Shown here one piece after another: positions 42,078 to 63,778 of a stretch of 64,000 nucleotides of DNA. Made by a program: the position numbers and the translations under genes. This DNA comes from Lutraria lutraria (taxonomy: Eukaryota > Mollusca > Bivalvia > Venerida > Mactridae). Where the stretch lies: assembly GCA_964023205.1 (NCBI GenBank), contig OZ026842.1:37339501-37403500 (forward strand), written 5' to 3'. The notes under the pieces were generated by a model. The model was not told the origin of the DNA and did no database searches. It worked only from the letters and a program-made list of their open reading frames with translations. The first letter of the stretch is position 1, and each line of letters opens with the position of its first letter.

Positions 42078-42338
42078 AGTAGTATACGGCGGTACCCTGG
42101 TACCATGGTCATATAGAATATAGAGGGGGTCGGTACCAGAAGTAAACAAAATTGTGACAAATGGGGACAAATTTGAATCCATTTGAAATGAAATTGGGTA
42201 CCCCAAAATAGTATGAAATGGATTAAGGAAATTTTTGGGCCCATTATTGTTGTGTGTGTGTATAGACTTAAATTTGAGACAATTGGAGAATTTACTTTCG
42301 AAAAGACATGGTGGCCCTGAAAAGGGCCGTTGGTGGTT
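42078..42338. repeat. Polinton left terminal inverted repeat
   Basis: Inverted match of 59708-60174, ending with the shared CCGTTGGTGGTT. The left copy is about 261 bp and has only a short GT run, while the right is 467 bp because of a (CA)n expansion. Each TIR carries an outward-directed histone-type stem-loop. Confidence 0.95.
42313..42328 (-). terminator. histone-type 3' stem-loop (distal, in left TIR)
   Basis: On the minus strand GGCCCTTTTCAGGGCC, a 6-bp stem with TTTC loop, preceded by CCAAC and followed by ACCA. It fits the consensus GGYYCTTHTHARRGCC exactly. CGAAAGTAAA lies about 14 nt downstream as a candidate U7-pairing element. Confidence 0.85.
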
Positions 42339-42341
42339 TGT

Positions 42342-42357
42342 GGCCCTGAAAAGGGCC
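42342..42357 (-). terminator. histone-type 3' stem-loop (proximal, left end)
   Basis: Same 16-nt hairpin on the minus strand, followed by ACA. It lies about 126 nt after the stop of the 42484-42843 ORF and 13 nt before the TIR copy, making a tandem pair. Confidence 0.8.
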
Positions 42358-42483
42358 GTTGATAGTTGTCTATGCTGACTGATCTGGTTGGGTACATAGT
42401 TCGCATTGGCAGTCTGGTGGGGGATAGCAGAGCCTGCATGTTGGATCCCCACAGGACCATTCCTGTTCTGGTACTGGTGGTTG

Positions 42484-42843
42484 TCACGTGTACTCAACTT
42501 GAGCGGTAGTGATGATACACCAATGCTCTTCTTCTTGTTGTTCCCGTTGTCTATTCACCGTTCTTTCCCTGGCATCTCGCTGCCTTTCTTTGGCTTGATC
42601 CCGAAAATGCTCTCGCATTTGAGATAGTTCTTCTCTATGATGAAACCGATTTGATTCAATTGTATTCAAAGTCTCACCAATGGTTTGAAGATCTCGTTCC
42701 CTTTTTCTAACAATGCTAGCAGCTAAGCGACTGATTGAACGCCATACTCTATTCTGTTTTTCAGTAAGTTGTTTTGCTGTTTTGAGTTCATTTAATAAAG
42801 CCTCCATCTTGAGCGTATGAGTTCTCAGAATGAAATGAGGCAT
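42484..42843 (-). CDS. coiled-coil protein at the left end of the Polinton (unknown)
   Basis: 119 residues, highly charged and helical, with heptad-like segments (METLLNEL-type start, QLTEKQNRVWRSI, RERDLQTIGETLN) and an Arg/Glu-rich C-terminal half (RDQAKERQRDARERT). The real start may be the Met at residue 13. I do not recognise a family. It is the last gene of the minus-strand block and is followed by tandem histone-type stem-loops instead of a nearby AATAAA. Confidence 0.55.
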   Translation of the reverse strand: MPHFILRTHTLKMEALLNELKTAKQLTEKQNRVWRSISRLAASIVRKRERDLQTIGETLNTIESNRFHHREELSQMREHFRDQAKERQRDARERTVNRQREQQEEEHWCIITTAQVEYT

Positions 42844-43057
42844 TGTGTTGTAAGACGGAGCATTTTTCTGGTGAAGCGCCGCCCACTCTCGTGGTTGGAT
42901 GACGTCATATTGCTGGATGACGTCACCCTATTGTTGGATGACGCCACGCGACGATGTACTGCATGTGCGGCGCTTGATTGGTAATTTTATGAACTTAAAA
43001 AGAATTTATGATATAATAAAAAAAGACAACAGACGCCTAGTTTCAGTTTTCTAAACT

Positions 43058-43063
43058 TTTATT
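43058..43063 (-). terminator. AATAAA polyadenylation signal after the protease gene
   Basis: TTTATT on the plus strand, AATAAA on the minus, about 75 nt after the protease stop codon. Confidence 0.5.
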
Positions 43064-43136
43064 TTTTTGTAACAAGAAACAAGAAACTACATGAAACTAC
43101 ATGAAACATTTTATGAAACATTTTATGAAACATTGT

Positions 43137-43772
43137 TTACACCATATAATCATCACCATAAAGAGTTGTATTTCTATGTATGATACTATGATACAAACGT
43201 CTGTGACCTTCTGGTCTAGAGTTACGTTGAGCAAAACACTTTTGTCCACATTTATTCACATATTGAGCATGCATGTAATAAGTACCATAATATTGTTTAA
43301 ACCAATGCGTCACATAAGTGTCATTTTTTCCATACATGTCCGGTTTGAATCGGGTTAACAGTATCTGGTTCAAGTCACATTCACGTGAGATAAAATCCAA
43401 AGCGAATAGACAATACACACCACACACCGGTAACATATCGCCTTGTATTCTCATGGCATTCCACAGATAAGTTTTGCTGGCATGTTTTTTCACAAAGGAT
43501 AGAATCTCTTCGAAAGGAGGTAATCCATAGGAATCAAAGTACACTGCTTTATTGTCTTTTAAATAAAGAGCCACCCAGTGTTCTCCAGGTTGATTCCCGT
43601 TATGGGTATTCACAATATAGGCTTTTACGTCATGCGGTTTCTCTGAAGGTAATTGATCTTTAGCACAAACACGTGCACTTAGTGGTTTTAATAACGGTGA
43701 ATGATCTAATAGGTATTGTAGTTCATTCGTCTCCATAATGCCAATTTCTGTTGACACGTTCAGCCCAAACAC
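43137..43772 (-). CDS. adenain-like cysteine protease (virion maturation protease)
   Basis: Up to 211 residues; the Met at about residue 13 (METNELQYLLDHSPLL) is the likelier start. The catalytic order His-Asp-Cys is visible: GEHWVALYL (His), VYFDSYGLPP (Asp) and VCGVYCLFAL (Cys before Gly). This is the C5/Ulp1-like fold used by adenoviruses and Polintons to process capsid precursors. The C-terminal 60 residues are basic and Cys/His rich. The 5' end overlaps the preceding ORF in another frame. The gene appears intact. Confidence 0.88.
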   Translation of the reverse strand: MFGLNVSTEIGIMETNELQYLLDHSPLLKPLSARVCAKDQLPSEKPHDVKAYIVNTHNGNQPGEHWVALYLKDNKAVYFDSYGLPPFEEILSFVKKHASKTYLWNAMRIQGDMLPVCGVYCLFALDFISRECDLNQILLTRFKPDMYGKNDTYVTHWFKQYYGTYYMHAQYVNKCGQKCFAQRNSRPEGHRRLYHSIIHRNTTLYGDDYMV

Positions 43773-44187
43773 TGATCCACTGATCTATGAACTGATTCTG
43801 AGTGAGTTCTTCTTTAAACTGAATCCATAATCGACACGCGTCTCCTTTTTCACTATCGGTCAAGGTCACTAATTCAGGATACCACTTTTCCATGACCTTG
43901 AACACGTCCAAACGTTGAATAGCTTTTTGAATGTAAAGTTCTGTCCACTCTTCCGTATTCGTGTATAAGCAGAGTACATGTTGTACTTGACTAGGATGAT
44001 TCACTCGACAACCATAACAGTCTTTATGCACTTGATTATAAATTAAAGATTGGAGTGCTTCTGTGACGTGATGATTCAAGCACTCTTGTAAAAAGTCCGT
44101 CCTTGAACTTGTACAACAAGGATACGCCAATAACTTCATTTCGTAATCTTGTCCTTTTTCCATGTGTTCAATATCCATGTCTTCCAT
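43723..44187 (-). CDS. small Cys/His-rich Polinton protein between capsid and protease
   Basis: 154 residues with the motif CYGCRVNHPSQVQHVLC (about 57-73), a CxxC-H-H-C arrangement that could bind zinc, after an early YPCCTSSRTDF segment. A protein of this type and position recurs in Polinton/adintovirus genomes between the major capsid protein and the protease. Its role is not known to me. Confidence 0.7.
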   Translation of the reverse strand: MEDMDIEHMEKGQDYEMKLLAYPCCTSSRTDFLQECLNHHVTEALQSLIYNQVHKDCYGCRVNHPSQVQHVLCLYTNTEEWTELYIQKAIQRLDVFKVMEKWYPELVTLTDSEKGDACRLWIQFKEELTQNQFIDQWISVWAERVNRNWHYGDE

Positions 44188-44201
44188 CTTAATAATCTAG
44201 A

Positions 44202-45461
44202 TTAATAATCTAGCAGCACTTCTCTGAATTGATTGATTTCAATTTGATTGTCGTATTCCGCAAATACAATCACGTTGATGGCTTGTGCAAGTGCTGTTCC
44301 AAAGTGAAATTCCAATCTCAGATTGCCCGTTTTTATAGGATGGAGTTGACCTTCCTCGCAACCTTGATCTGCTGTCAAGTCCAACCCCAGAGTGTGTATC
44401 CGTACCGATAATCATTCATGCTCAATCCAAATGAACGATTGAGACCAAGCGCTCCTGTCGCTTGATAGAGTGACATGTAGGATCTTAGAACTTCTCCCGT
44501 TTCAAAATTAGGTTGAAACGCTTTGTTATGAATACTTTTTCCGTAAATGCTGACTTCCAGGTGATTCAGTGTAAAATGACGGAAATCAAAGGGGTTGGTA
44601 GCCATATCTCCATTCATGTCTCCATTTCTTACCATACCGATGATAAGCCGTTTTGGCAATTGACCTTGAAATAAATGATCTTCAATCTTGGATCGTTGAC
44701 CGTTAGGAATCGTAAATGTTTTTACTTCAGTTCGTCGGATGGGAATTTTCATGTTATGTTGAGCAATCTGTTGATTGAGTTGATTGGCTACCACTGGCAG
44801 TAAATCTACTGTTCTTACATTGAATCCTGCTTCTAGAAACTTGATTTTAGCCGGTGCAGTACTCATGAGACAGAATTGGGGTGACGCTTTGTTTAGTCTT
44901 AAGCGTATTTCCATACCATTGGGTAAATATTTATCTTGCATCATCAGATCCAAATGAAGTCGTCCACATAGTTCCACCACACGACTTTGATGGACACGAT
45001 GACGCCTCGCAATATAGCCCAGGTTATTCCCGTCATGTACTTTGGTGAGCATATGACCAGGGGTGTCTGCAGCCCATAACTCTAACGCCTCAAGCTGAGT
45101 GTCTTTACAGCTTGAGTTGAAGGAGAGTAAATTTTTCTATGTAAGCCCGATAGGCATACGTGTCCGCATTGCTGGTGATCAGTTTATTTTTCAGGTACAC
45201 ATCAATGCTTGAGAACATGCTGTGAAAGAAATTGTTGACGGTAGCAATTTCACTGTCGACTGCTAGGTCTGTACCATCTGCCTGTATAATTTTGAGTTTT
45301 AGGTACAGGTAAGATTGATTCAGATCAGTCCATTTTTCTGTCTGTGCAGGAATCACAAATTCAATCGGAGCATTATTGTCCAGGGCAGAAATGGGATAAT
45401 GCTCAGTCCATTGACCCTCTTGCATAGCTGTCATGGTAGGTGGCACAACAGACACATCCAA
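44202..45461 (-). pseudogene. major capsid protein (hexon-like, double jelly roll), two frameshifts
   Basis: Three overlapping frames together cover one capsid gene. The first, 45105-45461, starts MDVSVVPPTMTAMQEGQWTE and has WTDLNQSYLYLKLKI. The second, ending at 44375, contains NHLEVSIYGKSIHNKAFQPN and a YMSLYQATGALGLN segment. The third ends at 44202 with GNLRLEFHFG and VIVFAEYDNQIEI, the strongly conserved C-terminal strands of the Polinton major capsid protein. The reading frame changes near 45107 and again near 44382, the latter in a GGGG run. Neither site resembles a programmed slippery site, so I treat them as disabling indels or, less likely, assembly errors. The protein would form the pseudo-hexameric capsomers of the shell. 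Confidence 0.88.
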
Positions 45462-45502
45462 CTCTGTCTTACTTCATTCGCAGGAACCGTGTTGCATCAT
45501 GA

Positions 45503-45868
45503 TTAATCGAAAATATCAAGAGGTCTGGCCTGCTTAACTCGGCGACGATGAAGTTTCGAATGAGGTCTTTTCTTGACTGGTTTGCTCTTTATACGTCTTT
45601 TTGGGCTGGCCACGGCACGTAGCAAGGATTCACCCACATCTTTTAATACAGAGGCTCCACGTTTTCGTATTACTTTTTTAGCATTTGATCCTGTCAAGAT
45701 ATCTTTCATAGCGGCTCTTCCTTGCTGGAGTCCTTCTTTTTTCAAGGTGTGAACTCCAGATTTCACCAATGGACTCAGTAAAGGCATGATTCTTTTCATG
45801 GCTTTCTTAAACATGGATCCGAGTCCGTGTCCATACTGTCGAGGTTGACCTTGGTAAGTAGGTATCAT
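45503..45868 (-). CDS. basic minor virion protein (adenovirus pX/pVI-like)
   Basis: 121 residues, very basic, with GHGLGSMFKKAMKRIMPLL near the N-terminus and a C-terminal KRRIKSKPVKKRPHSKLHRR tail. An amphipathic glycine-containing segment followed by a basic tail is typical of the Polinton/adintovirus minor core protein, thought to bind DNA or membranes. Its ATG overlaps the stop of the penton-like gene as ATGA (45865-45868). Confidence 0.65.
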   Translation of the reverse strand: MIPTYQGQPRQYGHGLGSMFKKAMKRIMPLLSPLVKSGVHTLKKEGLQQGRAAMKDILTGSNAKKVIRKRGASVLKDVGESLLRAVASPKRRIKSKPVKKRPHSKLHRRRVKQARPLDIFD

Positions 45869-46707
45869 TGTCTTTGACGTAGGTGTAGTTTCACCATAGA
45901 CTTCCCATGAATAAACTGAATAGACTGGCCAGTGTCACCCCTTATATGGATAGTGATGGTGTCAAAGTCGGCTTTAGCCAGTGGTACATAGTGTAAATTC
46001 AAGAACTCGAAATGAATATGGGGGTTAGTTCCTGCTTTCGTTCTCGGATCAAATGGAGCTACACGTAAGATGGGGGCTTCTATGTTTCCCAAATAGGTAT
46101 AAGCCGCGAGGTCAGAATAAACAAACAAATGATTATGACCCATGTTAATATCTACGCCATGAGGAAACGGCTCCGGAGTGTCTTTAAAAAAGATGGTAGG
46201 AGAACTATCAGGGGCTCCACCCAGTTTAATAAACATGTGGGGATGAAACTGAATGCCTAGTTGATCCGAACTGTCCAGTTTTGCGCGTTTACTTTGTCCT
46301 GAAAAACCCATGGTAAATCGAAGCCCTTTCTGTCTAAATATTTTACCCAATTGATCTTTCACGGTAAAGTCAATCGTCTTGATCAAATGTTGGGGTGTGA
46401 CATAAGTTCCTACAGGAATACAAAGTCGTACACCTTTTTCTTCTTTATTGGGGAGAGTACAATAGGTCTGAAAGTTTTCTAAGGCCTTACCCAGGACAGG
46501 ATCGTGCATGACAATGTAGAAATGTCGCTCTTCTTCAGTGACATTGATCACCTGACTAGGAACAATCATTTCCACTAAGGCAATTTCCCAGGCTTGTTTA
46601 TTGAGATGGATGGGTTTTGCCAGTTTGGTACGAAAACAACATTGCGTATTGTCTTGGAATAAATCCATAGAGCTGTCACTCATAAGTGTAATGTAAAACG
46701 AACTCAT
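45865..46707 (-). CDS. penton-like minor capsid protein (single jelly roll)
   Basis: 280 residues starting MSSFYITLMSDSSMDLFQDN, with TKLAKPIHLNKQAWEIALVE, the pattern seen at the N-terminus of Polinton penton/minor capsid proteins. A C-terminal stretch has HIHFEFLNLHYVPLAKADFD. It would occupy the five-fold vertices. It is intact, and is linked by ATGA overlaps to the gene before (46704-46707) and the gene after (45865-45868). Confidence 0.78.
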   Translation of the reverse strand: MSSFYITLMSDSSMDLFQDNTQCCFRTKLAKPIHLNKQAWEIALVEMIVPSQVINVTEEERHFYIVMHDPVLGKALENFQTYCTLPNKEEKGVRLCIPVGTYVTPQHLIKTIDFTVKDQLGKIFRQKGLRFTMGFSGQSKRAKLDSSDQLGIQFHPHMFIKLGGAPDSSPTIFFKDTPEPFPHGVDINMGHNHLFVYSDLAAYTYLGNIEAPILRVAPFDPRTKAGTNPHIHFEFLNLHYVPLAKADFDTITIHIRGDTGQSIQFIHGKSMVKLHLRQRQ

Positions 46708-46949
46708 GTTGACTTAGGTTTATTGAATTTCAAGGGGGTATTCGGTAGAATATAACCTAGAGAACTACTTAAAAGCAGAAGCCACAATTCTCGATCGGGT
46801 CGTTGAAAACACAAATTGAATAGCGATACGGTAATAATAATAAATACCACTACAATTTGTGACAAAAAAGTGACCTTATTTTTGGGTTCACACAATTTGG
46901 CTTGCTCTGAGGCAGTCACTTCCACACTGGCCGTATCAGCTTGAGACAT
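46704..46949 (-). CDS. small two-helix membrane protein of the Polinton
   Basis: About 81 residues from the Met of MSQADTASVEVTASEQAKLC. Two hydrophobic helices, VTFLSQIVVVFIIITVSLF and LWLLLLSSSLGYILP, are joined by a short loop. I start it at 46949 and not 47003 because the upstream part overlaps the integrase in another frame. Comparable short proteins occur in this position in adintovirus-type genomes. The role is unknown, possibly an internal-membrane or envelope component. Confidence 0.65.
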   Translation of the reverse strand: MSQADTASVEVTASEQAKLCEPKNKVTFLSQIVVVFIIITVSLFNLCFQRPDRELWLLLLSSSLGYILPNTPLKFNKPKST

Positions 46950-46969
46950 GATGTTTTTATTATAATAAA

Positions 46970-48070
46970 CTAACTTGAAACGAGATGGGATTCGGGAATC
47001 CAACTGTCAAATTTCGAAGGATAGCCTTTCCAATGCACTTTAATTTCACGTCTTCCGTCTACCTTTCTCTGGCGATGTGCGAGCACTGATTCAATTTCAT
47101 AGATAGCATCATCTTTTATAACCTGTACTTCAGAGAAATAAAACGAACCCAATATGGGTTCTCCGTCTAAATCAGTCAATTTCACAGTAGCAGGAGAGGT
47201 CTTTTTGACTTGGATCACTTTAAACAGTTCAGTGGTCCAGTTGGGTAGATAACCTTTATCAAATGTACGTTTTGTTTTATTGATACGAACAATATCTCCC
47301 ACATGAAGGGTCGTCGACGCTTTCTTTCTTGATTTTCCATACAAGGTCAAGGCCACTTGAGATTCGTTATTCTCATTCACGGATACGGGTGCCATTTGTA
47401 TACTACGATGAACACGATGATTATAGGCATGCACGAGATCAGGCAATACCTGAATATACCTTCGTGTTTTATGATGCGTAAAGTATTTCCACATGCGTGA
47501 TTTTAATGTCCGTTGAAAACGTTCCACCACACTAGCCTTAGTTTCTGGGTTTTCAGTCGTAAAATAATGAATCCCTACTTTGTCTAAAAACTGTTGAAAC
47601 CTTTGATTCTTGAATTCTGTTCCTTTATCTGTTTGCAACGCTTTAGGTTGTCTCGTTTTAAGAATAGAGCGAAACGCTTCCACCAATGTGAGCCCCGTTT
47701 TATCCTTGAGGGGAACTACCCAAGCATATTTTGAAAACACGTCAATGACACACAACAAATATCGATAAGGGGTGTTGTACTGAGCCAGGGATTGCATGTC
47801 TGCCAAATCAGCTTGCCATTGATGATCAATACCACCCACGATCGTTTTCCGTCTCGAGAATGCCCTACGGATAGGTTTGTGCAGGGTATAGGTCTTTTGC
47901 CCCTTCAACCAGGATCGCACTTGACTTGGCGTAATGGATTTCAGTTGAGTTCGAGCTGCTGTAGTAAGACGTTCTACCCCACCAAAACCAGCCGGATGGT
48001 GGGGATCATAATAAATCTGATGTAACAGACTGTCTACCTTTTTGTTCATGTTGTCTAGTAGGCTTCCCAC
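46970..48070 (-). CDS. retroviral-type integrase with C-terminal chromodomain
   Basis: 366 residues. The rve/DDE core has all three acids: Asp in HQWQADLADM (about residue 87), Asp in ALQTDKGTEF (about 148) and Glu in KASVVERFQR (about 184). Downstream follow an SH3-like region (VGDIVRINKTKRTF) and a chromodomain near residues 320-362 (YEIESVLAHRQ...IKVHWKGYPSKFDSW). Integrase inserts the linear element and makes the 6-bp target duplication; the chromodomain may bias target choice through histone marks. The gene appears intact. Confidence 0.93.
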   Translation of the reverse strand: MGSLLDNMNKKVDSLLHQIYYDPHHPAGFGGVERLTTAARTQLKSITPSQVRSWLKGQKTYTLHKPIRRAFSRRKTIVGGIDHQWQADLADMQSLAQYNTPYRYLLCVIDVFSKYAWVVPLKDKTGLTLVEAFRSILKTRQPKALQTDKGTEFKNQRFQQFLDKVGIHYFTTENPETKASVVERFQRTLKSRMWKYFTHHKTRRYIQVLPDLVHAYNHRVHRSIQMAPVSVNENNESQVALTLYGKSRKKASTTLHVGDIVRINKTKRTFDKGYLPNWTTELFKVIQVKKTSPATVKLTDLDGEPILGSFYFSEVQVIKDDAIYEIESVLAHRQRKVDGRREIKVHWKGYPSKFDSWIPESHLVSS

Positions 48071-48777
48071 TTAGGTTCTGCTTTAATCTGTTTGGCAGGT
48101 TTACTTATAGGTGTCGGAGGCTCAACAAAACTATCAAAGAATTCATCATCTTCCTCCGAATCGTCTGCTTTTTGCATCCATGACCATCTCCGTTTATTTC
48201 CTATCACTTCTTGTGGTACATTGACATCTCTTAGTCCACTAGAAAACTGTTCCCATCCTCTAGGTTCCGACCCTTTTCTATGACGTATGACATCATTTAC
48301 CAAATCAATAATGTTGGATCCTTGTATTGGTTTTCCATGATATTCCAACATCCCTTGATCATTCCATGACATGTGGGGATGATTTTGTAGAAAGTGTAAT
48401 AAAAGTTGAGTTTTTCGACGCATGGTAGTAGGAACACTTTCAAGAATCCTATCCGTCAATATAGCAGGAGCAGCTTGTGCACCTTGTGTACCTTGAGCAG
48501 CTGGAACAACCGGTGCAGCCGGTGCAGCCGTTCCAGCCAGAGTAGCCGGTTCACGTGCTTTTTGATGAGACAGTTGAAACTTTTGCAAGACTTGCCCATA
48601 GTGTTGTGCTTTTTCTGATTCAGACAACGATTCATTTTTTAATACTTCTCCCATTTGTTTCTGTAAATCGGATGTTTGACTGACTTGCGGGGGAGGAGGT
48701 AAACGTGGTCGTTGTTCTGTTTTCCATCGATTCATCTCTTCTAGCATTTTGAACGGGACGATAGCCATTTTCTTCAT
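48055..48777 (-). CDS. conserved Polinton protein with proline/alanine linker (unknown function)
   Basis: 240 residues: an N-terminal basic segment MKKMAIVPFKMLEEMNRWK, a PPPP and Ala/Pro/Gln-rich linker (about 85-110), then a folded-looking region with LLHFLQNHPHMSWNDQG and NIIDLVNDVIRHRKG, and an acidic Ser-rich tail. Proteins of this layout are found next to the integrase in related elements, but I know no assigned function. The start ATG overlaps the stop of the preceding gene as ATGA, and its end overlaps the integrase start by 16 nt. Confidence 0.6.
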   Translation of the reverse strand: MKKMAIVPFKMLEEMNRWKTEQRPRLPPPPQVSQTSDLQKQMGEVLKNESLSESEKAQHYGQVLQKFQLSHQKAREPATLAGTAAPAAPVVPAAQGTQGAQAAPAILTDRILESVPTTMRRKTQLLLHFLQNHPHMSWNDQGMLEYHGKPIQGSNIIDLVNDVIRHRKGSEPRGWEQFSSGLRDVNVPQEVIGNKRRWSWMQKADDSEEDDEFFDSFVEPPTPISKPAKQIKAEPKWEAY

Positions 48778-49145
48778 ATTTTTTTCACCAGTGTGGCAAC
48801 ACCTCCACTGAGTGCTCCTGCAGCAACAGCTTTAGCAATGATTGGAGCAAGAGCCAGTAATGGAAATAATCCTCCTTTTTGATTCAACACACGTTTCTTT
48901 TTTTGAATGGATACTCTTTTATCTGCTAAAGTGCGGAGATGATGACGCTTGGACTTCAACCTTTGCTTTTGAGAGGGGGATAAGGCAACATTGCCTTTTA
49001 AAACATTCTGACAGCATTCTGCCACACATTGAATCATTTCTTTAGATGCTCCATGTATCATCTTTCTTCTTAACCCATGTGGGGCTTGAGTTAAACCCAA
49101 AACCAGATGTCCGTATTTATGCAGGAGTGGTCGCTTTGGTGCCAT
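48774..49145 (-). CDS. conserved small basic Polinton protein with C-terminal hydrophobic helix
   Basis: 123 residues. A basic helical domain contains RRKMIHGASKEMIQCVAEC and NVLKGNVALSPSQKQRLK, followed by NQKGGLFPLLALAPIIAKAV, a glycine-hydrophobic tail likely to insert in membrane or act as a maturation signal (QKGG resembles viral protease sites, inference). The type recurs widely in Polinton-like genomes; the function is unknown. Confidence 0.65.
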   Translation of the reverse strand: MAPKRPLLHKYGHLVLGLTQAPHGLRRKMIHGASKEMIQCVAECCQNVLKGNVALSPSQKQRLKSKRHHLRTLADKRVSIQKKKRVLNQKGGLFPLLALAPIIAKAVAAGALSGGVATLVKKI

Positions 49146-49183
49146 TATGTCAAATAATACCTGTTTTTACTTCTTCACAGCTT

Positions 49184-50263
49184 TTATAGTAAAGCATCAA
49201 AGGCTTGTCTTGAAGCTGGACTCATAGGGCCCTTTCTCATCAGGTGAATACGATGTCTCAAAAGGGGTTTCAAGACAGCCTGTCTTGATAAGGTAGATAA
49301 GGATAGGGGTGAAAAACGGCACAATGGAGTGTCTGGTGAACTTCTTGAACTGTGAGATGATCTGCTGGATGAACTTCTAGAACTGTTAGATGATCTGCTG
49401 GATAAACTGTTAGATGAGCTCCTAGATGAGCTAAAGCTACTTGGTCCACTTCTAGATGAATTTTGAGATGAGCTAAAGCTACTTGGTCCACTTTTAGATG
49501 AATTTTGAGAAGTAAAACTTCTACTTGGCCCACTTCTAGATGAATTTCTTGAACTTCTAGATAAACTGCTTGGTCCACTTCTTGATAAACCTCTTGAAGA
49601 ACTGCTTGGTCCACTTCTAGATAAACTTCTAGATGAACTGCTTGGTCCACTTCTAGATAAACTTCTAGATGAACTTCTAGGTGTGCTAAAAGAGCTTGGT
49701 CCACTTCTAGAAGAACTCAAACTCAAACTACTCACAGGACTGATTGGAGACCATTGTAACTTACTGATTGGAGTTACAGCTATAGAGGGTGTTGAAGTGG
49801 TTTGCTTTCGACGACGGAGAGTAATAAAACGTTCATTGATCTTGGCAGGCGATTTTCTGACTGGTGATACTTTTTTAGTTTGAGATTTTCTAGCTTTTTT
49901 AGCTGGTGGTTTTCTGGCAGGCGCTTTTCTGGCTTTTCTAGCTGGTGCTTTTTTAGCTGGCGCTTTTCTGGCTTTTTTAGCTGGAGATTTTCTTGCTCCA
50001 AATTTACGAATAGTCTTTTGACCATTCCATCGGAGTAAACTTCGTATCATGACTCCACCAAGAAATCCACCTCCTCCTGGTTTCAATATGAGTTGACGTT
50101 TAGTATCCATGTCCACTTGATCATCTCCCAGCTGCTCTAATTCATGCTGATGTTTTTGCATAAAGTTTTGTGTTTGTTTAGGTAGCACAATTTTCTTTTT
50201 TAAAATCACCTTTGCTGCTAAGGTGAACCACTTGAGCATTTCTTTTAATCCAGACCGTAGCAT
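49184..50263 (-). CDS. Lys/Ala- and Ser/Arg-repeat virion-like basic protein, with stop in its leader
   Basis: 359 residues in three parts: a helical N-terminus (MLRSGLKEMLKWFTLAAKVI) with LILKPGGGGFLGG; a histone-H1-like KKAPARKARKAP repeat block (about 90-140); and a long Ser/Arg/Gly/Pro repeat region (SRSGPSSSSRS units, about 195-315). It probably condenses DNA in the virion, like adenoviral core proteins (inference). The same frame continues upstream to an ATG at 50333-50335 but is closed by TGA at 50285-50287, so the native N-terminus was probably about 24 residues longer and is now lost. Confidence 0.6.
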   Translation of the reverse strand: MLRSGLKEMLKWFTLAAKVILKKKIVLPKQTQNFMQKHQHELEQLGDDQVDMDTKRQLILKPGGGGFLGGVMIRSLLRWNGQKTIRKFGARKSPAKKARKAPAKKAPARKARKAPARKPPAKKARKSQTKKVSPVRKSPAKINERFITLRRRKQTTSTPSIAVTPISKLQWSPISPVSSLSLSSSRSGPSSFSTPRSSSRSLSRSGPSSSSRSLSRSGPSSSSRGLSRSGPSSLSRSSRNSSRSGPSRSFTSQNSSKSGPSSFSSSQNSSRSGPSSFSSSRSSSNSLSSRSSNSSRSSSSRSSHSSRSSPDTPLCRFSPLSLSTLSRQAVLKPLLRHRIHLMRKGPMSPASRQAFDALL

Positions 50264-50378
50264 TTGCTCCCGTACAGTAGGGTCTCATTCCTGACCCAAA
50301 TGTTCTAACGATTGAGCTATGGCTGTGGCTGACATGATGACTGAATGATCTTATATGAGTAAACGAATACCATGTCGT

Positions 50379-56015: not shown

Positions 56016-56292
56016 TCGATCTCACTTCACATCTCTTGTAGAGCTGATCCATCATATCATTAAACAACCTGTTTGTAAATTCAAACGATTGATTATACGG
56101 TTGAAATGTCACATCATATACTCTAGATTGAGTCTTGAATTTCCTTGACTTTCTTTCCATGCGTGACTGTATGTCATAATAGTCGCGCACAGGCTCAAAC
56201 TTGCTTCGTTTAGTTGGAGGTTCATCCTCACCACTAGTACTGTCGGTATCTGATATGGTTATGATCTTAGAACTTCTCACAACGCGTGACAC
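55951..56292 (-). pseudogene. detached N-terminal part of DNA polymerase B
   Basis: 113 residues ending RVRVSILHPDLDFGIHEIG. Acidic Ser-rich start, then a basic nuclear-signal-like PPTKRSKF, then YQSFEFTNRLFNDMMDQLYKR-type sequence and a VRVSILHPDLD strand. In related elements this type of region directly precedes the LDEIERV segment of PolB. Here the two overlap in different frames at 55964-56015, so a frameshift or small deletion has separated them. Alternative: an independent gene ending inside PolB. Confidence 0.6.
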
Positions 56293-56335
56293 TCTATAAA
56301 AGACGTACGCTCCGTCAGTTTTTTATCATTTCAAC

Positions 56336-57026
56336 ATGAGCGATCCTAAAGTGAACCAATCTGAAGAGAACCGAGATCAAACTTTGATGTATTCATTAAA
56401 GAAGAAAATTAAAGAGGTCAACAACTTAGCGGATCAGCTCTGTGGACAGAAAAATGTAACATGGGATCATATTAATAGTTACAGGGTTAGTAACTGACCC
56501 GATACGGGATATACGGGTCTGTGGAAAACCATATGGGGCGAGACCGAAGGTCGAGTCCCGATATGGTTTTCCACAGACCCGTATATCCCGTATCGGGTCA
56601 GTTACTATGCCTGTAACGATTATATCACGCAGACTACCTTCCGCCTCATCATTTGCAATAAAAGCCTCCATCACAGACCCAATATTTAAATATGAATGAC
56701 TCCATTACAGACCTAATATTTTCTGCTAACCTAATATAGGATATATTAGGTCACCACGTGACGTCAAATCATCCAATGACAGAAGCGTATTTTGTAGTAG
56801 GCGTGATATAAATTGTTATCGTTGTGGAAAGAAAGGACATTATTCTACCAGCTGTACGGAAACCGTCGATAAAAATGAATGCTTTTATTGTCATGAACAA
56901 GGACATTTCATCGCAGACTGTCCTAAGAAACAAGGTGAACAGGTCGATCTACAGGACGCAGAACAGAGTAAGAAAAAACGTAAATACAAAAAGAATCCAA
57001 CAAAAACTGTGAGTGACTTTGTGTAA
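56336..57026 (+). pseudogene. double CCHC zinc-knuckle gene, split by a palindromic insertion
   Basis: The plus-strand ORF from 56336 (MSDPKVNQSEENRDQTLMYS, helical) is cut near 56478. The 3' part resumes near 56811 in a frame shifted by one, with two zinc knuckles of spacing C-x2-C-x4-H-x4-C (CYRCGKKGHYSTSC and CFYCHEQGHFIADC) and a Lys-rich tail ending at 57024-57026. Zinc knuckles bind single-stranded nucleic acid, so an intact product could have been a replication or packaging helper. The gene is divergent from PolB, and AATAAA follows at 57153. The insertion at 56478-56812 introduces a stop. Confidence 0.75.
56478..56812. repeat. composite MITE: 140-bp palindrome plus a 190-bp TIR segment
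   Basis: 56478-56617 is a near-perfect inverted repeat with arms of about 58 bp, starting GTTACAGG and ending CCTGTAAC, around a loop containing GGCGAGACCGAAGGTCGAG. Next to it, 56621-56812 has its own inverted ends TATATCACGC and GCGTGATATA. No clean target duplication could be fixed. Confidence 0.75.
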
Positions 57027-57223
57027 TAGTGTTCGGACAATGCGTTGGACAATTTGTGTTTCGGGACAATTGTGTATCTAAGTGAGTTGTATTTTGTTGT
57101 ACTTTGTACTTTGCTGTACTTTGTTACACTTTGTTACTCAGAATGTTTTCAAAATAAAATGATATACAATGTAATATGCTTTTGTCTTTGCTTGAGAAAC
57201 AAAACGAATCTAACACATATGGT

Positions 57224-57239
57224 GGCCCTAATAAGGGCC
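57224..57239 (-). terminator. histone-type 3' stem-loop after the 78-aa gene
   Basis: On the minus strand GGCCCTTATTAGGGCC, preceded by CCCAAC and followed by ACCA; exact fit to GGYYCTTHTHARRGCC. Only 10 nt separate it from the stop at 57250. No purine-rich element is close downstream; AAGCAAAGACAAAAG lies about 38 nt away. Confidence 0.8.
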
Positions 57240-57249
57240 GTTGGGTACT

Positions 57250-57486
57250 TTATTGCATTTCTGCAAGAAATAAGTATCGCCAATAGTTGGCTGTCAATTC
57301 CTCATCATAATAGATGGAAAGGTCTGGGTACAAATTACCCATCTTGATATCCATCTTCACTTCTACACATGCATCTTGGAATTCAGACAAGTCTGGGTAC
57401 AAATTACCCATCTTGACCACCAAAACATCTTCTTGTAACTCAGACAAGTTAGGTTCATCAGAAGTACTTTTGAAACAGTTGCCCAT
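57250..57486 (-). CDS. 78-residue MGNC protein with duplicated MGNLYPDL motif
   Basis: It starts MGNCFKSTSDEPNLSELQED: Gly2 and Cys4 suggest possible N-myristoylation and palmitoylation, although residue 6 is Lys, not the preferred Ser/Thr. KMGNLYPDLS occurs twice, about 25 residues apart, in an acidic context. The counterpart in the second element (63516-63752) differs at only five positions, mostly conservative, so the protein has been under selection. No family is recognised. It is divergent from the coiled-coil gene at 57713, with a shared CCAAT-box promoter, and ends in a histone-type stem-loop. Confidence 0.7.
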   Translation of the reverse strand: MGNCFKSTSDEPNLSELQEDVLVVKMGNLYPDLSEFQDACVEVKMDIKMGNLYPDLSIYYDEELTANYWRYLFLAEMQ

Positions 57487-57571
57487 GTTGAATCATGAAA
57501 CACAAATGAGCTATGGAACATGAAAAAAAACACTGACCTTGAACAGACCTATGAAATGCCATTAAAATGGA

Positions 57572-57648
57572 CCAATGAAATACCGTTAAAATGGACCAAT
57601 GAAATACCGTTAAAATGGACCAATGAAATACCGTTAAAATGGACCAAT
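57572..57648. promoter_or_regulatory. four CCAAT boxes at 24-bp spacing in a bidirectional promoter
   Basis: CCAAT starts at 57572, 57596, 57620 and 57644, the last as CCAATCAGA, the best NF-Y consensus. The 24-bp unit contains GAAATACCGTTAAAATGG. It lies between the divergent genes starting at 57486 (-) and 57713 (+). The second element keeps four boxes at the same spacing. Confidence 0.7.
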
Positions 57649-57712
57649 CAGAGTCCTTGTATCATATGAGAGTCAGTGACCTTGCCTTGATCTAGTTTCA
57701 TTCTGTATCGAG

Positions 57713-58035
57713 ATGTCGCAGCGTACACTCAACATTATTAAGAGAAAGTATACAACCTTAGGGTTGTATATTGAACAACTCGAAATGCAGTTAGAAGAGC
57801 TGCGCTTGGAGGTCAAGACCCTGAGAGAGGGGAAGAAGTTCGCTGAGGAGGTCGTAGTGGAGTCTGGGGAAGAGGACTGGGGGATACCCCTCAAGAATCA
57901 ACCCCAGAGAACTGGGAAGATGAGTTGGTAGAGGTTCCGTCGGACCTCTATCAACCCACGCCGGACCCGAAAGAAGTGGAGAAATGGGACAAGTGGTGTC
58001 CCGCTTGTATGGGGAGATGCGGTCAACGCCATTAA
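57713..58035 (+). pseudogene. coiled-coil protein with C-terminal Cys motif, one-base frameshift
   Basis: It starts MSQRTLNIIKRKYTTLGLYI, with a leucine-heptad coil (EQLEMQLEELRLEVKTLREG) and an acidic VVVESGEEDW segment. After a G run at 57879-57883 (five G, six in the second element) the frame shifts and the conserved C-terminus continues in another frame to 58033-58035, ending with a CPACMGRCGQRH motif that could bind zinc. The intact counterpart is 62996-63319 (107 residues). The coil suggests a dimeric regulator (inference). Two stem-loops follow 20 nt after the stop. Confidence 0.7.
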
Positions 58036-58054
58036 TCCCCATACAAGCACCAAC

Positions 58055-58070
58055 GGTCCTTTTCAGGACC
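58055..58070 (+). terminator. histone-type 3' stem-loop, covarying variant
   Basis: GGTCCTTTTCAGGACC: the third stem pair is T-A, not C-G, so pairing is kept while sequence changes. It lies 20 nt after the stop at 58033-58035. Confidence 0.8.
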
Positions 58071-58076
58071 AACAAC

Positions 58077-58092
58077 GGCCCTTTTCAGGGCC
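58077..58092 (+). terminator. histone-type 3' stem-loop with downstream purine element
   Basis: GGCCCTTTTCAGGGCC, exact consensus, 6 nt after the first hairpin. CAGAAAGAAT at 58104-58113 lies at the usual distance of a U7-pairing histone downstream element. Confidence 0.85.
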
Positions 58093-58269
58093 CCCATACA
58101 ATTCAGAAAGAATCACTCTCATATTGTCAATATTATCATACTTTACTATTTACTACTATATTTACATTCCTATCTGATGACGTCAAATCATGACGTCATT
58201 TATAAACTTGCTGGTGGGTAGACGTTGGGAGGTAAGTTTTATAGAGTTAAACATTTGATTGCTGTGATT

Positions 58270-58745
58270 ATGACATTTTTTTCCTACAAATGCATGCAAA
58301 GTGCTGTGATTATATTAAGTATAACATTTCCAACAAATGTATGTACAGTATTCAAAGTGATAGTATGACGTGTACAAAGTATTTCCTACAAATACATGCA
58401 AAGTGCTGTGCTAGTATGTATGAAGTACAAAGTATTTTCAACAAATGTATGCAGTATTCAAATTGCTGTGATAGTATATATTAAGTATACAGTATTCAAA
58501 GTGATAGTATGACGTGTACAAAGTATTTCCTACAAATACATGCAAAGTGCTGTGCTAGTATGTATGAAGTACAAAGTATTTTCAACAAATGTATGCAGTA
58601 TTCAAATTGCTGTGATAGTATGACGTGTACAAAGTATAACATTTTCAACAAATGTATTTCCCACAAATGCATACAAAGTGCCATGATTGTATTACGTGTA
58701 ATATTTTCTACAAAGTGCTGTGATTGTATGATGTGTACAAAGTAG
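58270..58745. repeat. tandem repeat array with GTGCTGTGATAGTATGACGT units
   Basis: Degenerate units of roughly 45-130 bp contain CAAAGTATTTCCTACAAATA, ATGCAAAGTGCTGTG and AGTATGACGTGTACAAAG. A block of about 130 bp is nearly duplicated (58350-58470 versus 58500-58630). A few copies are present at about 62750-62815 in the second element. Possible enhancer or replication region; no coding. Confidence 0.7.
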
Positions 58746-58784
58746 ATCTAACCTTGAAGTGTTGGAACAAATAAAATAAGTGTC

Positions 58785-58930
58785 GGCCTTGACGTGTCAC
58801 AATTGGCCTTGAAGTGCCACACAAAGACAAAATCCTTGACGTGTCGGCCTTGACGTGTCAAAAATAACCTTGACGTGTCAAACTGCTTGACGTGTCAAAA
58901 ATAACCTGTCAAAAAATAACCTTGAACGTC
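58785..58930. promoter_or_regulatory. array of TTGACGTGTC (CRE/ATF-like) sites
   Basis: CTTGACGTGTC occurs about six times, with variants TTGAAGTGCC and TTGAACGTCG, within 150 bp upstream of a TATA box. TGACGTG is a core for CREB/ATF/XBP1-type bZIP proteins. Confidence 0.55.
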
Positions 58931-58982
58931 GCGCTCTACGTGGCCTTGAACATGTAGAACACTGGCGCGTGCAGGTAAAAAG

Positions 58983-58990
58983 TATAAATA
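58983..58990 (+). promoter_or_regulatory. TATA box of the MESFNMPYD gene
   Basis: AGTATAAATACCCCCGGCGC, with the ATG 36 bp beyond the box. The same TATA, spacing and GGCGCAGACAC context are conserved at 62605-62612 in the second element. Confidence 0.8.
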
Positions 58991-59025
58991 CCCCCGGCGC
59001 AGACACTATTTTTTCATTAGCTAGC

Positions 59026-59687
59026 ATGGAGTCCTTCAACATGCCATACGATATATTGAGAGAAGCACTAGAATCGTCTGAGTTGTTAGACCAGAATGCG
59101 GGTATGCATTACAACCAGCCAAAGTACAGTCAACTACAGTATAGTCAACCACAGTAAAGCCTGCCTAAGTACAGTCAACCACAGTACAGCCTGCCCAAGT
59201 ACAGTCAACAGTCCATGGTAGATGTACAGCCAATACAGTCCATGGTAGATGTAAAGCCAATACAGCCCATGGTAGATGTACAGTCCATGGTAGATGTACA
59301 ACCCCCTATGGCGAATACACAGCCTATGGTAGATGTACAACCCACTATGACGAATACACAGTCTATACAGCCTATGGCGAATACAACGGGTGATACAAAG
59401 CCTACAACGGGATTGTCTGTTCTACAAGGTATCAGGGAAGAAATGGTGCAGATGAATCAAGTTAAGAGATGGTCAGACTCATGAAAAATCAAGAAGTACG
59501 GTTTAAGCCACAAGAAATGATTGTACCTGTACAGTTTATGTATGATTCAAAGAAACGAAAACATGAGCATGAGAAAAAGAAACCGGAGCATGACAAAAAG
59601 AAACCGGAGATGACAGAAACGAAGAAACGAAAACATGACCTTGAGAAACAACCTCGGGGCAAGTATGGTAAAGAAATAAAGAAATGA
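59026..59687 (+). pseudogene. MESFNMPYD repeat protein, nonsense and frameshift
   Basis: The conserved N-terminus is MESFNMPYDILREALESSEL. A Tyr/Gln/Pro repeat region follows (YSQPQ, then MVDVQP units). A TAA at 59155-59157 interrupts the repeats in frame, at a position where sister repeats have TAC. The frame then stays open to 59484, while a Lys-rich basic tail (KKRKHEHEKKKPEHDKKKP) in another frame ends at 59685-59687. Acidic head, repeat linker and nuclear-type basic tail suggest a regulatory or DNA-associated protein (inference). A histone-type stem-loop lies 30 nt after the final stop. Confidence 0.6.
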
Positions 59688-59707
59688 CGATCCGACTAAC
59701 CACGACC

Positions 59708-60174
<467 letters not shown>

Positions 60175-60280
60175 CTGGTAGCTGGGCTTGAGCCCTGACC
60201 CTCTACCAGTGAGAAGTTGTAGTGATTTAAAGTCAGCGACCTTAACCACTCGACCAAGGAGGCGGGTCAGGATCCTAGAT
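60175..60280 (-). repeat. tRNA-derived SINE (family B), 5' head, split by the Polinton
   Basis: On the minus strand CCTTGGTCGAGTGGTTAAGG and a GGGCTCAAGCCC B-box form the tRNA-like head. It continues across the Polinton at 42077. The SINE duplication GGATCCTAGAT is at 60270-60280. Confidence 0.9.
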
Positions 60281-62241
60281 AAACATGAAAGTCGTATTGT
60301 TTTTCGACGAAGTCTTTATTAGATATACAGTGCACACTCTCCAAAGCAATACCCTTTGAGTGTAGTAAAAGCATGCTGTTGTTGCGCGGTTGTTGCTCTA
60401 AATTAATAGCTAAATCGTTCTGTGGGAAAATTCCTGCTGTTAAAGTGAGGCTGTCGCTCAAGGTAGGGCCGCTCTAGAGAGGCTGTACTATACAAGTTAT
60501 TAATATTAATCCAGAAATAAGGGCCCCTCAAATAAGGTCAAATGTTAATGATCACATTTACTAGCCCCCTAACCGACATGAGTTCGAATCCTAGACAAAT
60601 TCGACAATTTAAGAAAGCCTTCCAGCTAGCTTACGATATATCGGTGGTTTTACCAGGTGCAGGTCTGGGGTCTTTCTTCAGCATTAGAGAGGTAGAAGTG
60701 ACGCCGGATGTTGTTGCAACGCAATACGTCAGTGAAAAATCTCACTGATATAAAATGAGTCAAGTAGATAACGAACAGTACCAACAGGGCCATCAACATA
60801 TGGGTTAAATCTCCAAACATATTGTAAACAAACAACTTGTCTTTATAGGTTAACAGCATTCGGAAATACTACTTTAAGAGTAGGCCAATTGTTTTGTTTA
60901 CGAAAAAACGAGCCGAACTATAGTTCAATTTTCTTATAGTCAAGGTCGAATATTGGACGATACCATTGAAAGGTAATAACTGTAAATTGATTGCCCAAAT
61001 CATTTTAAATCCGTAGTAAAGTATCATTCACGTAAACCAGAGTTATGGTGTATTGGATAAGGTCAAAGGGGTTTGTCACAAAAAAAATCAAAAAAAAATT
61101 TTTTTTTCATGTAACCCATATAATATATAGAAGGGAAACAACTTCGACAATTCGAATTTTCCAACGCGTGTTATAAACTTCCATGTTATTGCAATGCAGT
61201 ACAAAATAGTTAACTCATATATAGCGCAACGTATGGGCAACTCAACACGCTTACAGAAAATGTATACTTTTACTACCTTTAAAGATATTCTAAACTCGCT
61301 ATTGAAGATTTTTCACTCGAAAAATGGTCAAATTTTACAAAACGACACACTGTCGTAAAATCGCAGCGTGTATACCGGTATACATGTACAGAGTGGAAAT
61401 GTTAAATTACTGACACAACTTCTTAGAATGGGCCTTAATTCATAATAAAACACTTTAATATACTAACTGCCAATGATTTCGCATCTCGGAAAGCACTTTT
61501 AGCGAAGAATTTGCGTATTTTTTTATTCAATAAGCCGGTGTAGCATAAAATTTTGACCCCGTGGAAAAATGACCCCAGGGGTCATTTTTCAACGGATTAT
61601 TGATCAATTTTCAACGTTAAATATTGACCCATACCGTTAAATAATGACCCCATTACGCGTGAAAATTTGACCCTCGTTAAAAACTGATCAACCTTTGTTA
61701 GAGTTATTTTCAGCGTCAGTAAATAATTATATAATGTAAGTCATTCTCACGATTTCTGTTAATAAAACTCTATAGGTAATTTGAATTTCGTATTTAAACG
61801 ATCTTAAAGAGGTTCTTTCGTTGTGTATTGATGGCGTCAGACACCGAAATTTTCATTTTAGTTGAAAAGCTGACAAATTGTATGAAACATTGAAAAACCA
61901 TCATCCAAGCTGAAACAAGAGTTTTGCGGCATATTGAGAATGCATGGTGCCGAGATTGAGAGTTTATCCGGTGCGACTTCCAAGGTTCTGGGCAAGGTTC
62001 TGGATAAACTGTCTCCGTTTCGGCACCAATCATATATGTATTCGATTTGTCCTGTTCCAGTAACAAAATAAGTCCCAAAACACTTGTAGTGCCCGATGAC
62101 GCGTTGCATCGCTAAATGTAAAATTGACCGTTTTAGACATAATGGATCACAGAAACTAGTACAAGCAAACCTTATTGTACGTCGACGGAAGTCGACGTAC
62201 ACTCTGGTATGCTTATTTTTAAATGGCAATGCAAAATCGCA
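60281..62241. other. intergenic host DNA between the two Polintons
   Basis: No convincing gene. A/T runs at about 61080-61110; a cluster of short inverted TTGACCCC/GGGGTCAA motifs at 61550-61680; a GTCGACGGAAGTCGAC palindrome near 62180. Confidence 0.5.
61550..61680. repeat. cluster of inverted TGACCCC motifs
   Basis: ATTTTGACCCCGTGG, AATGACCCCAGGGGTCATTT, AATATTGACCCATACCG and AAATTTGACCCTCG follow each other with a central perfect palindrome. Probably a MITE or transposon end. Confidence 0.5.
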
Positions 62242-62428
62242 AGTAGTAATGGGCGTTACCCTGGGACCCGGGTCATATAGAATATAGAGGGGGTGGGTCC
62301 CCAAAGTAAACAAAATTGTGACAAATTAGGACACATTGGAATCCATTGGAAATCCATGTTGTACCCCCAAAATAGTATGAATTGAATTTTCGGAAACTTC
62401 TGGGACCATTGTTTTGTGTGTGTATAGA

Positions 62429-62569
62429 CTAAAATTTAGACAATGAGAGAATTTTCTTTGGCTGGTTGTACTTCGGCTGGTTGTAATGCATACCCGCATT
62501 CTGGTCTATCAACTCAGATGATTCTAGTGCTTCTCTCAATACATCGTATGGCATGTTGAAGGACTCCAT
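62429..62569 (-). pseudogene. MESFNMPYD gene of the second element, truncated into the TIR
   Basis: 46 residues: the conserved head MESFNMPYDVLREALESSEL is followed after about 35 residues by sequence read from the TIR (KKILSLSKF). The repeat region and basic tail of the first copy are deleted, along with the TIR stem-loop. Confidence 0.65.
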
Positions 62570-62604
62570 GCTAGATAATGAAAAAATAGTGTCTGCGCCG
62601 GGGG

Positions 62605-62612
62605 TATTTATA
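62605..62612 (-). promoter_or_regulatory. TATA box, second element
   Basis: TATAAATA on the minus strand in the same AGTATAAATACCCCCGGCGC context as 58983-58990, again 36 bp before the ATG. Confidence 0.75.
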
Positions 62613-62938
62613 CTTTTTGCCTGCACGCGCCAGTGTTCTATTAGGTCAAGGTTATTTTTGACAAGTTTTTTTGAATAAGTGTGACACTTCAAGTTTTTTT
62701 TTGTACCAGTGTGACACTTCATATCTCAGCAATTTGCAGACTGTATACATTTGTTGAAAATGATTGTACATCACACATCATACTATCACAGCACTTATAT
62801 TTGTAGGAAATGTTATAATCAAATGTTTATAGAAAACTTACCTCACACCGTATATTAAGTTTGTATTTGGTGTTATCAGATAGGACATTTACTAGTAATA
62901 TTGACAATATGAGAGTGATTCTTTCTGAATTGTATGGG

Positions 62939-62954
62939 GGCCCTGAAAAGGGCC
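62939..62954 (-). terminator. histone-type 3' stem-loop, second element (distal)
   Basis: GGCCCTTTTCAGGGCC on the minus strand, with CAGAAAGAAT at the same distance downstream as in the first element. Confidence 0.85.
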
Positions 62955-62960
62955 GTTGGT

Positions 62961-62976
62961 GGTCCTGAAAAGGACC
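62961..62976 (-). terminator. histone-type 3' stem-loop, second element (proximal, covarying)
   Basis: GGTCCTTTTCAGGACC on the minus strand, 19 nt after the stop at 62996-62998. Confidence 0.8.
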
Positions 62977-62995
62977 GTTGGTGCTTGTATGGGGA

Positions 62996-63319
62996 TTAAT
63001 GGCGTTGACCGCATCTTCCCATACAAGCGGGACACCACTTGTCCCATTTCTGGACATCCTTGGGGTCCGGTGTGGGTTGGTAGAGGTTCGACGGAACCTC
63101 CGTGAGCTCATCCTCCCTGTTCTCTGGGGTTGATTCTTGGGGGGTATCCCCCCAGTCCTCTTCCCCAGAGCTGACCACGACCTCCTCTACAAACTGCTTC
63201 CCCTCTCTTAGGGTCTTCACTTCAAAACGCAGCTCTTCTAGCTGCATCTCAAGTTGTTCAATATACCGCCCTAAGGCAGCATATTTTCTTTTAATAATGT
63301 TAACTGTTCTCTGTGACAT
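62996..63319 (-). CDS. coiled-coil protein with C-terminal CPAC motif, intact copy
   Basis: 107 residues: MSQRTVNIIKRKYAALGRYI, leucine coil, acidic VVSSGEEDWGDTPQE, a Pro-rich EVPSNLYQPTPDPKD segment and terminal WCPACMGRCGQRH. It is full length here, which shows that the 57713 copy carries a one-base deletion. Divergent from the MGNC gene at 63516 across the CCAAT array. No family recognised. Confidence 0.75.
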   Translation of the reverse strand: MSQRTVNIIKRKYAALGRYIEQLEMQLEELRFEVKTLREGKQFVEEVVVSSGEEDWGDTPQESTPENREDELTEVPSNLYQPTPDPKDVQKWDKWCPACMGRCGQRH

Positions 63320-63378
63320 CTTGATACATAATGAAATTAGATCAAGGCAAGGTCACTGACTCTCATACAAGGACTCTG

Positions 63379-63455
63379 ATTGGTCCATTTTAACGGTATT
63401 TCATTGGTCCATTTTAACGGTATTTCATTGGTCTATTTTAATGGCATTTCATTGG
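63379..63455. promoter_or_regulatory. four CCAAT boxes at 24-bp spacing, second element
   Basis: ATTGG at 63379, 63403, 63427 and 63451, the same number and spacing as 57572-57648, in reverse orientation, between the divergent genes. Confidence 0.7.
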
Positions 63456-63515
63456 TCTGTTCAAGGTCAGTGTTTTTTTCGTGTTCCATAGCTCATTTAT
63501 GTTTCATGATTCAAC

Positions 63516-63752
63516 ATGGGCAACTGCTTGAAAAGTACTTCTGATGAACCTAACTTGTCTGAGTTACAAGAAGATGTTTGGGTGGTCAAGATGGGTAATT
63601 TGTACCCAGACTTGTCTGAATTTCAAGATGCATGTGTAGAAGTGAAGATGGATATCAAGATGGGTAATTTATACCCTGACCTTGCCATTTACTATGATGA
63701 GGATTTGAGAGCCAACTATTGGCGATACTTATTTCTTGCAGAAATGCAATAA
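63516..63752 (+). CDS. 78-residue MGNC protein, second element
   Basis: MGNCLKSTSDEPNLSELQED start, two MGNLYPDL motifs, ending YWRYLFLAEMQ. Only five residue differences from 57250-57486, with no gap. The conserved acylation-type start and duplicated motif argue for a real gene. Confidence 0.75.
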   Translation: MGNCLKSTSDEPNLSELQEDVWVVKMGNLYPDLSEFQDACVEVKMDIKMGNLYPDLAIYYDEDLRANYWRYLFLAEMQ

Positions 63753-63762
63753 ATTACCCAAC

Positions 63763-63778
63763 GGCCCTTATTAGGGCC
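63763..63778 (+). terminator. histone-type 3' stem-loop after the MGNC gene, second element
   Basis: GGCCCTTATTAGGGCC, 10 nt after the stop, followed by ACCA; identical in sequence and spacing to 57224-57239. Confidence 0.8.

Follow-up and report, generated by a model that had tools for sequence, protein, structure and literature searches.

In a 64,000-nt stretch of the genome of the bivalve Lutraria lutraria (contig OZ026842.1, positions 37,339,501 to 37,403,500; hereafter the window), four accessory genes of a Polinton/Maverick element, a virus-like DNA transposon, are followed by hairpins of the type found at the 3' ends of animal histone messages. It is likely that the host stem-loop-binding protein SLBP and the U7 small nuclear ribonucleoprotein (snRNP) process these four messages by a cut just past the stem-loop, so that they have no poly(A) tail. 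On balance, we also favour the broader view that the transposon has adopted, for its own accessory genes, the signal that ends animal histone messages and so reads the host S phase through RNA processing. According to the cited sections of two papers on histone messages, SLBP sits on the loop, the U7 snRNP on a downstream element, and cleavage takes place between them, at a CA some 5 nt beyond the stem (PMC7026596, PMC6303110), with mouse U7 pairing with an AAAGAG core (PMC7026596).

Histone-type hairpins in the window

An earlier note on this DNA had listed nine 16-nt hairpins, each with a 6-bp stem and a 4-nt loop, and all were found where it placed them, at positions 42313, 42342, 57224, 58055, 58077, 59718, 62939, 62961 and 63763 of the window. 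Seven match GGYYCTTHTHARRGCC exactly, a sequence that had 0 matches in 100 dinucleotide shuffles, and the two variants (58055 and 62961) have a GGTCC/GGACC stem in which a compensatory change keeps full pairing. Perfect 6-bp/4-nt hairpins with at least four G/C per arm occur 11 times in the whole window, and nine of these are the ones listed. The Rfam Histone3 covariance model (RF00032), which scores 46 positions including the flanks and has a gathering score of 34, matched seven of the nine, all at E<=0.0033, and gave no further match at E<=1 in the 64 kb. Two matches exceed the gathering score (59713-59759, 35.8 bits; 42289-42333, 34.3 bits), and the other five, at 26.4-31.7 bits, fall below it.

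We reject a count of nine independent sites. Inverted repeats pair 57224 with 63763, 58055 with 62961, 58077 with 62939 and, within the terminal repeats, 42313 with 59718, with 42342 remaining unpaired, and this reduces the nine hairpins to five sites. These five serve four gene ends: the left gene (two loops), a 78-amino-acid (aa) gene that we call gene A (loop A), a 107-aa gene (loops B and C) and the right gene (loop D). The earlier description of nine hairpins ending Polinton genes is thus right in that all nine are real, and has to be narrowed to five sites and to only four accessory genes carrying the signal.

The flanks of the hairpins are histone-like (CAAC/ACCA-type), and the sequence after loops A, C and D reads ACCAT or CCCAT, with the CA step 3-4 nt past the last stem. 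Purine elements reading AGAAAGAA or GAAAGAAAA lie 13-14 nt past loops C and D, as had been claimed for 58077, 59718 and 62939; the claim can be extended to 42313, which has the purine run GAAAG 14 nt on, but not to 57224 and 63763, and a near element is hence present in three of the four units. Tandem loops are frequent (2-4 per end), the purine element being found solely past the last loop. When the four window ends were folded as RNA every loop formed, with z between -4.7 and -1.3, the value for A not being outstanding.

Placement after gene stops

Every hairpin lies in the sense orientation of the gene upstream of it, as the earlier note had stated. At the left end of the element, a 119-aa gene (42484-42843, minus strand) is followed by stem-loop E (42342-42357, minus; 26.4 bits), stem-loop D' (42313-42328, minus; 34.3 bits) and the GAAAG run (42295-42299, minus). 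Comparison of its open reading frame (ORF) across copies shows that the frame is broken here, most copies encoding 148-173 aa, and the longer distance from stop to hairpin in the window, 126 nt, goes with this broken frame: in 17 of 22 other left-end loci with a listed upstream ORF, 12 nt separate the stop from the first loop, and in the other five, some of which have short or broken frames, the spacing is 16-241 nt. Gene A (57250-57486, minus; 78 aa, starting with MGNC) precedes stem-loop A (57224-57239, minus; 31.0 bits), and 16 of 20 right-end pieces from the host assembly have an ORF of 50 aa or more whose end lies 10 nt upstream of this loop, the others having broken or shortened frames. 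The 107-aa gene, which reads as a 72-aa ORF in this element (57713-57931, plus), is followed by stem-loop B (58055-58070, plus; identified by hairpin search, with the GGTCC/GGACC stem), stem-loop C (58077-58092, plus; 31.2 bits) and, 13 nt past C, AGAAAGAA (58105-58112, plus). It ends 18-19 nt before loop B in 17 of the 20 right-end pieces, the remaining frames again being broken or shortened. The right gene, whose end is a 72-aa ORF here (59469-59687, plus) and which encodes 216-256 aa in most copies, is followed by stem-loop D (59718-59733, plus; 35.8 bits) and, 14 nt past it, by GAAAGAAAA (59747-59755, plus); its stop lies at least 26 nt before its first loop in the right-end pieces.

A second, partial copy of the element repeats two of these units. 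There the 107-aa gene is intact (62996-63319, minus) and is followed by loop B (62961-62976, minus; hairpin search), loop C (62939-62954, minus; 31.7 bits) and AGAAAGAA at 62919-62926, and the 78-aa gene A (63516-63752, plus) by loop A (63763-63778, plus; 31.0 bits).

Strand positions 5-50 nt past the stop of an ORF of 70 aa or more make up about 4.0% of the region. Three of the four units fall in this range in the window itself, and the left unit does so in other copies, giving chances of about 6e-5 for the three and 2.6e-6 for four of four, rough figures given that the ORFs were called mechanically. A test of 19 minus-strand ORFs for a histone-type hairpin in the 150 nt downstream was positive for only two, the 78-aa gene and the left gene. 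The other 17, which include the polymerase, integrase, ATPase, protease and presumed capsid ORFs, have no perfect 6-bp/4-nt hairpin of any kind within that distance (0/17).

The four hairpin-ended genes are small, non-core, accessory genes, and none of their proteins has a Pfam match over cut-off, histone families included, so that we could also reject a host histone cluster in the window. A search for left-gene homologs returned two relatives at 83-86% identity from 33 candidates, which did not illuminate its function, and comparison with PHROGs gave nothing useful. The gene A protein has two YPDL motifs besides its MGNC start; we take the latter to be a possible lipid-anchor start, and the former, as we see it, resemble viral late-budding motifs.

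Conservation among copies in the host assembly

The host assembly (728.5 Mb, 71 contigs) contains many related elements. A terminal-repeat query gave at least 42 matches (40 of 870 candidates scored), many of them opposite-strand pairs about 13-18 kb apart, and the 107-aa gene is present in at least 150 copies (150 of 443 candidates scored), 149 of the 150 having no internal stop. At about 93-100% identity, these copies look like a recent, large burst of one Polinton family. The Histone3 scan of the assembly, in which 75 of 131090 candidates were scored, yielded 44 reported matches, of which 37 exceed the cut-off. All of the 30 over-cut-off matches that were inspected have a Polinton terminal flank and 29 have an ORF within 300 nt upstream, the exception being L034, which has no listed upstream ORF and was assigned by its flank alone. 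Host histone genes were not among the Histone3 matches inspected, and we make no claim on their loops.

Two samples of copies were compared. The first, 20 right-end pieces picked by hairpin D, served to count the other loops: A was present in 20/20, B in 20/20 and C in 19/20, being lost in L079. The second consisted of 20 of the 150 copies found by protein and not by hairpin, of which 20/20 have B and 19/20 have C (one stem base is changed in L100). At the right end of ten of these copies at least one loop is intact in 10/10 and the distal loop in 8/10, L106 having a mismatch in the distal loop and L108 one loop only. Histone3 matched in 20/20 pieces, a set made up of the ten end pieces together with ten from the twenty that cover B/C. 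D was also counted, over 49 distinct copies, but these loci had been selected by the hairpin itself and the count is not used here.

Conservation is confined to a short block around the loops. In 20 copies the alignment around loop A is invariant over the loop itself, the 5 nt preceding it and the 23 nt that follow, whereas 43 of 100 columns vary 31-130 nt past it. For B/C, 1 of 26 columns (22 sequences) and 2 of 26 (20 sequences) vary 5-30 nt past the loop, as against 53 and 56 of 100 columns, respectively, farther downstream; the two copies of the window were left out of the count for A, for which they are cut too short, and kept for B/C. The conserved block thus stops about 23-30 nt past the loop. 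Pair 3 of the loop C stem was seen as C-G, T-A and T-G, which we read as covariation of one stem pair. Within the host family, the association of hairpins with ORF ends that the earlier note had looked to in related elements is kept across copies, and the opposite result did not occur.

Two loci stood out for other features. L077, with loop A beyond B and C, unlike the other 19 right-end pieces, is a rearranged copy, and L110 has a tRNA match over cut-off (1023-1095, 39.4 bits) a few hundred bases beyond the end hairpins.

The element and its second copy

Element 1 is complete (42078-60174) and is flanked by a 6-bp target duplication, CTGGTA, at 42072-42077 and 60175-60180. Inverted-repeat comparison delimits a left terminal repeat (42078-42341, with stem-loop D' at 42313) and a right one (59705-60174, with stem-loop D at 59718) that is interrupted by a simple repeat. 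The element encodes a protein-primed type B DNA polymerase (Pfam DNA_pol_B_2, 132.1 bits, cut-off 25.8), an integrase (rve, 47.1 bits, and Chromo, 33 bits, both over cut-off) and an A32-type packaging ATPase (Pox_A32, 33.9 bits, cut-off 22.8), as well as a candidate adenovirus-like protease (Peptidase_C5, E 0.046, below cut-off). No hexon or penton capsid candidate was found by Pfam among the element proteins, and the ORFs that we presume to encode capsid proteins were placed by what we take to be the Polinton gene order. Element 1 is a Polinton/Maverick, adintovirus-like element; the earlier note had called it a Polinton, and the polymerase, the rve integrase with Chromo, the Pox_A32 ATPase, the terminal repeats and the 6-bp duplication all agree with this.

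The second copy was identified by repeat comparison (62242-64000). It runs in the opposite direction about 2 kb away (the two are separated by 60174-62242) and off the window, and lacks both the end hairpin and the last part of the right gene.

Distant relatives and other loci

Beyond the host, no hairpin match was found in viral contigs, which gave a single remote integrase match, and phage records gave no match. Five contigs of a single bacterial bin, Limnohabitans MAG20 (L003-L006 and L008), encode Polinton-type integrases, most likely through eukaryotic contamination of the bin.

Five of the seven Histone3 matches below cut-off in the host assembly sit in a host tandem array (L061-L063, on C12 at about 22.874-22.918 Mb), whose unit of about 1.5 kb contains an intronless-looking 109-aa gene. 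Three 10-kb pieces of the array hold 19 such ORFs and 20 histone-type loops, GGCCCTTTTCAGAGCC, whose stem has one C-A mismatch and which lie about 39 nt past the stop. The 109-aa gene belongs to no known Pfam family and has 227 relatives in the protein collection, the named ones in Mya arenaria and Pinctada imbricata. It is a second non-histone gene family with a histone-type signal.

Discussion

SLBP binding, U7 pairing, cleavage, tail-less messages and S-phase expression are what we infer from the letters of the four gene ends. SLBP would bind the loop and the U7 snRNP would pair with the downstream purine element, with cleavage between the two. The accessory messages would then lack poly(A), would be made and translated along with SLBP and would vanish once DNA copying stops, so that expression would be confined to, or highest in, S phase. 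The signal of the two end genes lies in the terminal inverted repeats, and each repeat may thus double as a 3'-processing cassette for the outward-reading end gene. Where loops stand in tandem before a single purine element, the number of SLBP sites may vary with one cutting site staying. The hairpin-ended genes might be expected to act early or in dividing cells, and the structural genes to use ordinary ends.

Several observations weigh against this reading. Unit A (57224 and 63763) has its nearest purine run only 35 nt on. Single loops have been lost in L079, L100, L106, L108, L045 and L052, and the hairpin is lost in L024, one of 20 terminal-repeat loci and the only such case among the 50 terminal-repeat and Histone3 loci. 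The copies are fairly young, so that part of the conservation is recency, and their coding tails are likewise little varied (3 of 61 columns in 20 sequences). Among distant relatives, Histone3 found nothing in four metagenome-derived genomes (0/4; integrase identity 34-49%) or, at the gathering score, in ten loci (0/10), pieces that need not hold gene ends, and a Polinton-wide trait is consequently not supported. At the stop of gene A, both copies of the window and 6 of 20 others have an overlapping AATAAA. Finally, that neither AATAAA nor ATTAAA occurs in the 300 nt following the stop of any of the four window units is weak evidence, as 9 of the 17 other ORFs equally lack a poly(A) signal. 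As to the purine element, part of a study of the bivalve Lucina pectinata reports that only some of its histone genes have one near the palindrome (PMC6210712).

These observations bear on four other explanations. Mimivirus and virophage messages end in 3' hairpins that are palindromes of no fixed sequence, and these messages are polyadenylated. The hairpins described here could be of this kind, marking the ends of still-polyadenylated messages without any part for SLBP or U7: the element comes from the same virus world, its hairpins likewise lie just past gene stops, and unit A lacks a near purine element. Yet the resemblance goes beyond mere pairing, in that the sequence of stem, loop and flanks conforms to the histone consensus and attains the Rfam curated score; the purine element and its spacing fit U7, and the hairpins are present after a few genes only, so that we regard this explanation as unlikely. 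Improbable, too, is a dual arrangement in which the loop binds SLBP and the messages are also, or mostly, polyadenylated at a nearby signal, as in worm histone genes, which according to part of one report carry both a hairpin and a poly(A) signal (PMC1924863). The AATAAA over the gene A stop is what such an arrangement would use, but 14 of the 20 copies have AATGAA at this place, and none of the four window units has a signal past its stop in the 300 nt considered.

A third explanation, that the hairpins were captured once from a host histone gene and have been carried along, disused, by recent spread, would be in keeping with the youth and relatedness of the copies and with their little-varied coding tails. 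It accounts poorly for a loop and 23-30 following nucleotides being kept next to sequence in which about half of the columns vary (43, 53 and 56 of 100), for the occurrence of A, C and D in otherwise different surroundings and for the covarying stem pair, and we consider it very unlikely. That the hairpins act as DNA, as integration, replication or packaging sites, would suit D and D' inside the terminal repeats but hardly A, B and C, which are internal and each lie past a gene in its sense orientation, and this explanation is highly improbable.

Processing by SLBP and U7 thus stays our preferred account, and it would set the element apart from the systems it resembles. The histone consensus has U at loop positions 1 and 3, and the usual histone stem is CUC/GAG. 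Like the histone mRNA 3' end (RF00032), the Polinton signal sits just past the stop and combines a 6-bp stem with a 4-nt loop whose positions 1 and 3 are U, similar flanks and a CA step; three of the four units also have a purine element with the usual spacing. Unlike it, the signal follows non-histone genes of a mobile element, its stem is CCC/GGG where the Rfam consensus has CUC/GAG, its loops stand in tandem and it lies partly in terminal repeats. With described Polintons/Mavericks the element shares polymerase B, the rve integrase with chromodomain, the A32-type ATPase, terminal inverted repeats and the 6-bp duplication, and it differs from them in the histone-type 3' ends of its accessory genes.

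The earlier note knew of no description of such signals in Polintons. This holds for their placing, genes and use, of which no account was found in the open-access papers searched, and a search by term of an adintovirus-related preprint returned no mention of a stem-loop or hairpin (PMC11071296). It does not hold for the bare occurrence of matches: six 'histone 3'UTR stem-loop' matches are counted among the non-coding RNAs of protist polinton-like virus and virophage genomes, none of them in the cryptophyte set, in a section that leaves their place, gene and meaning undiscussed (PMC12220804).

If our interpretation is correct, the histone 3' end is not exclusive to histones and a selfish element has adopted it, breaking the rule that, among animal protein-coding messages, only replication-dependent histone mRNA is known to end in a stem-loop and not in poly(A) (PMC6303110). 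The at least 150 genomic copies provide a ready test set. Such transcripts would be absent from libraries of poly(A)-selected RNA, so that Polinton expression in animals may have gone unnoticed. The Polinton itself would be tied directly to host DNA replication, with part of its messages outside poly(A) control.

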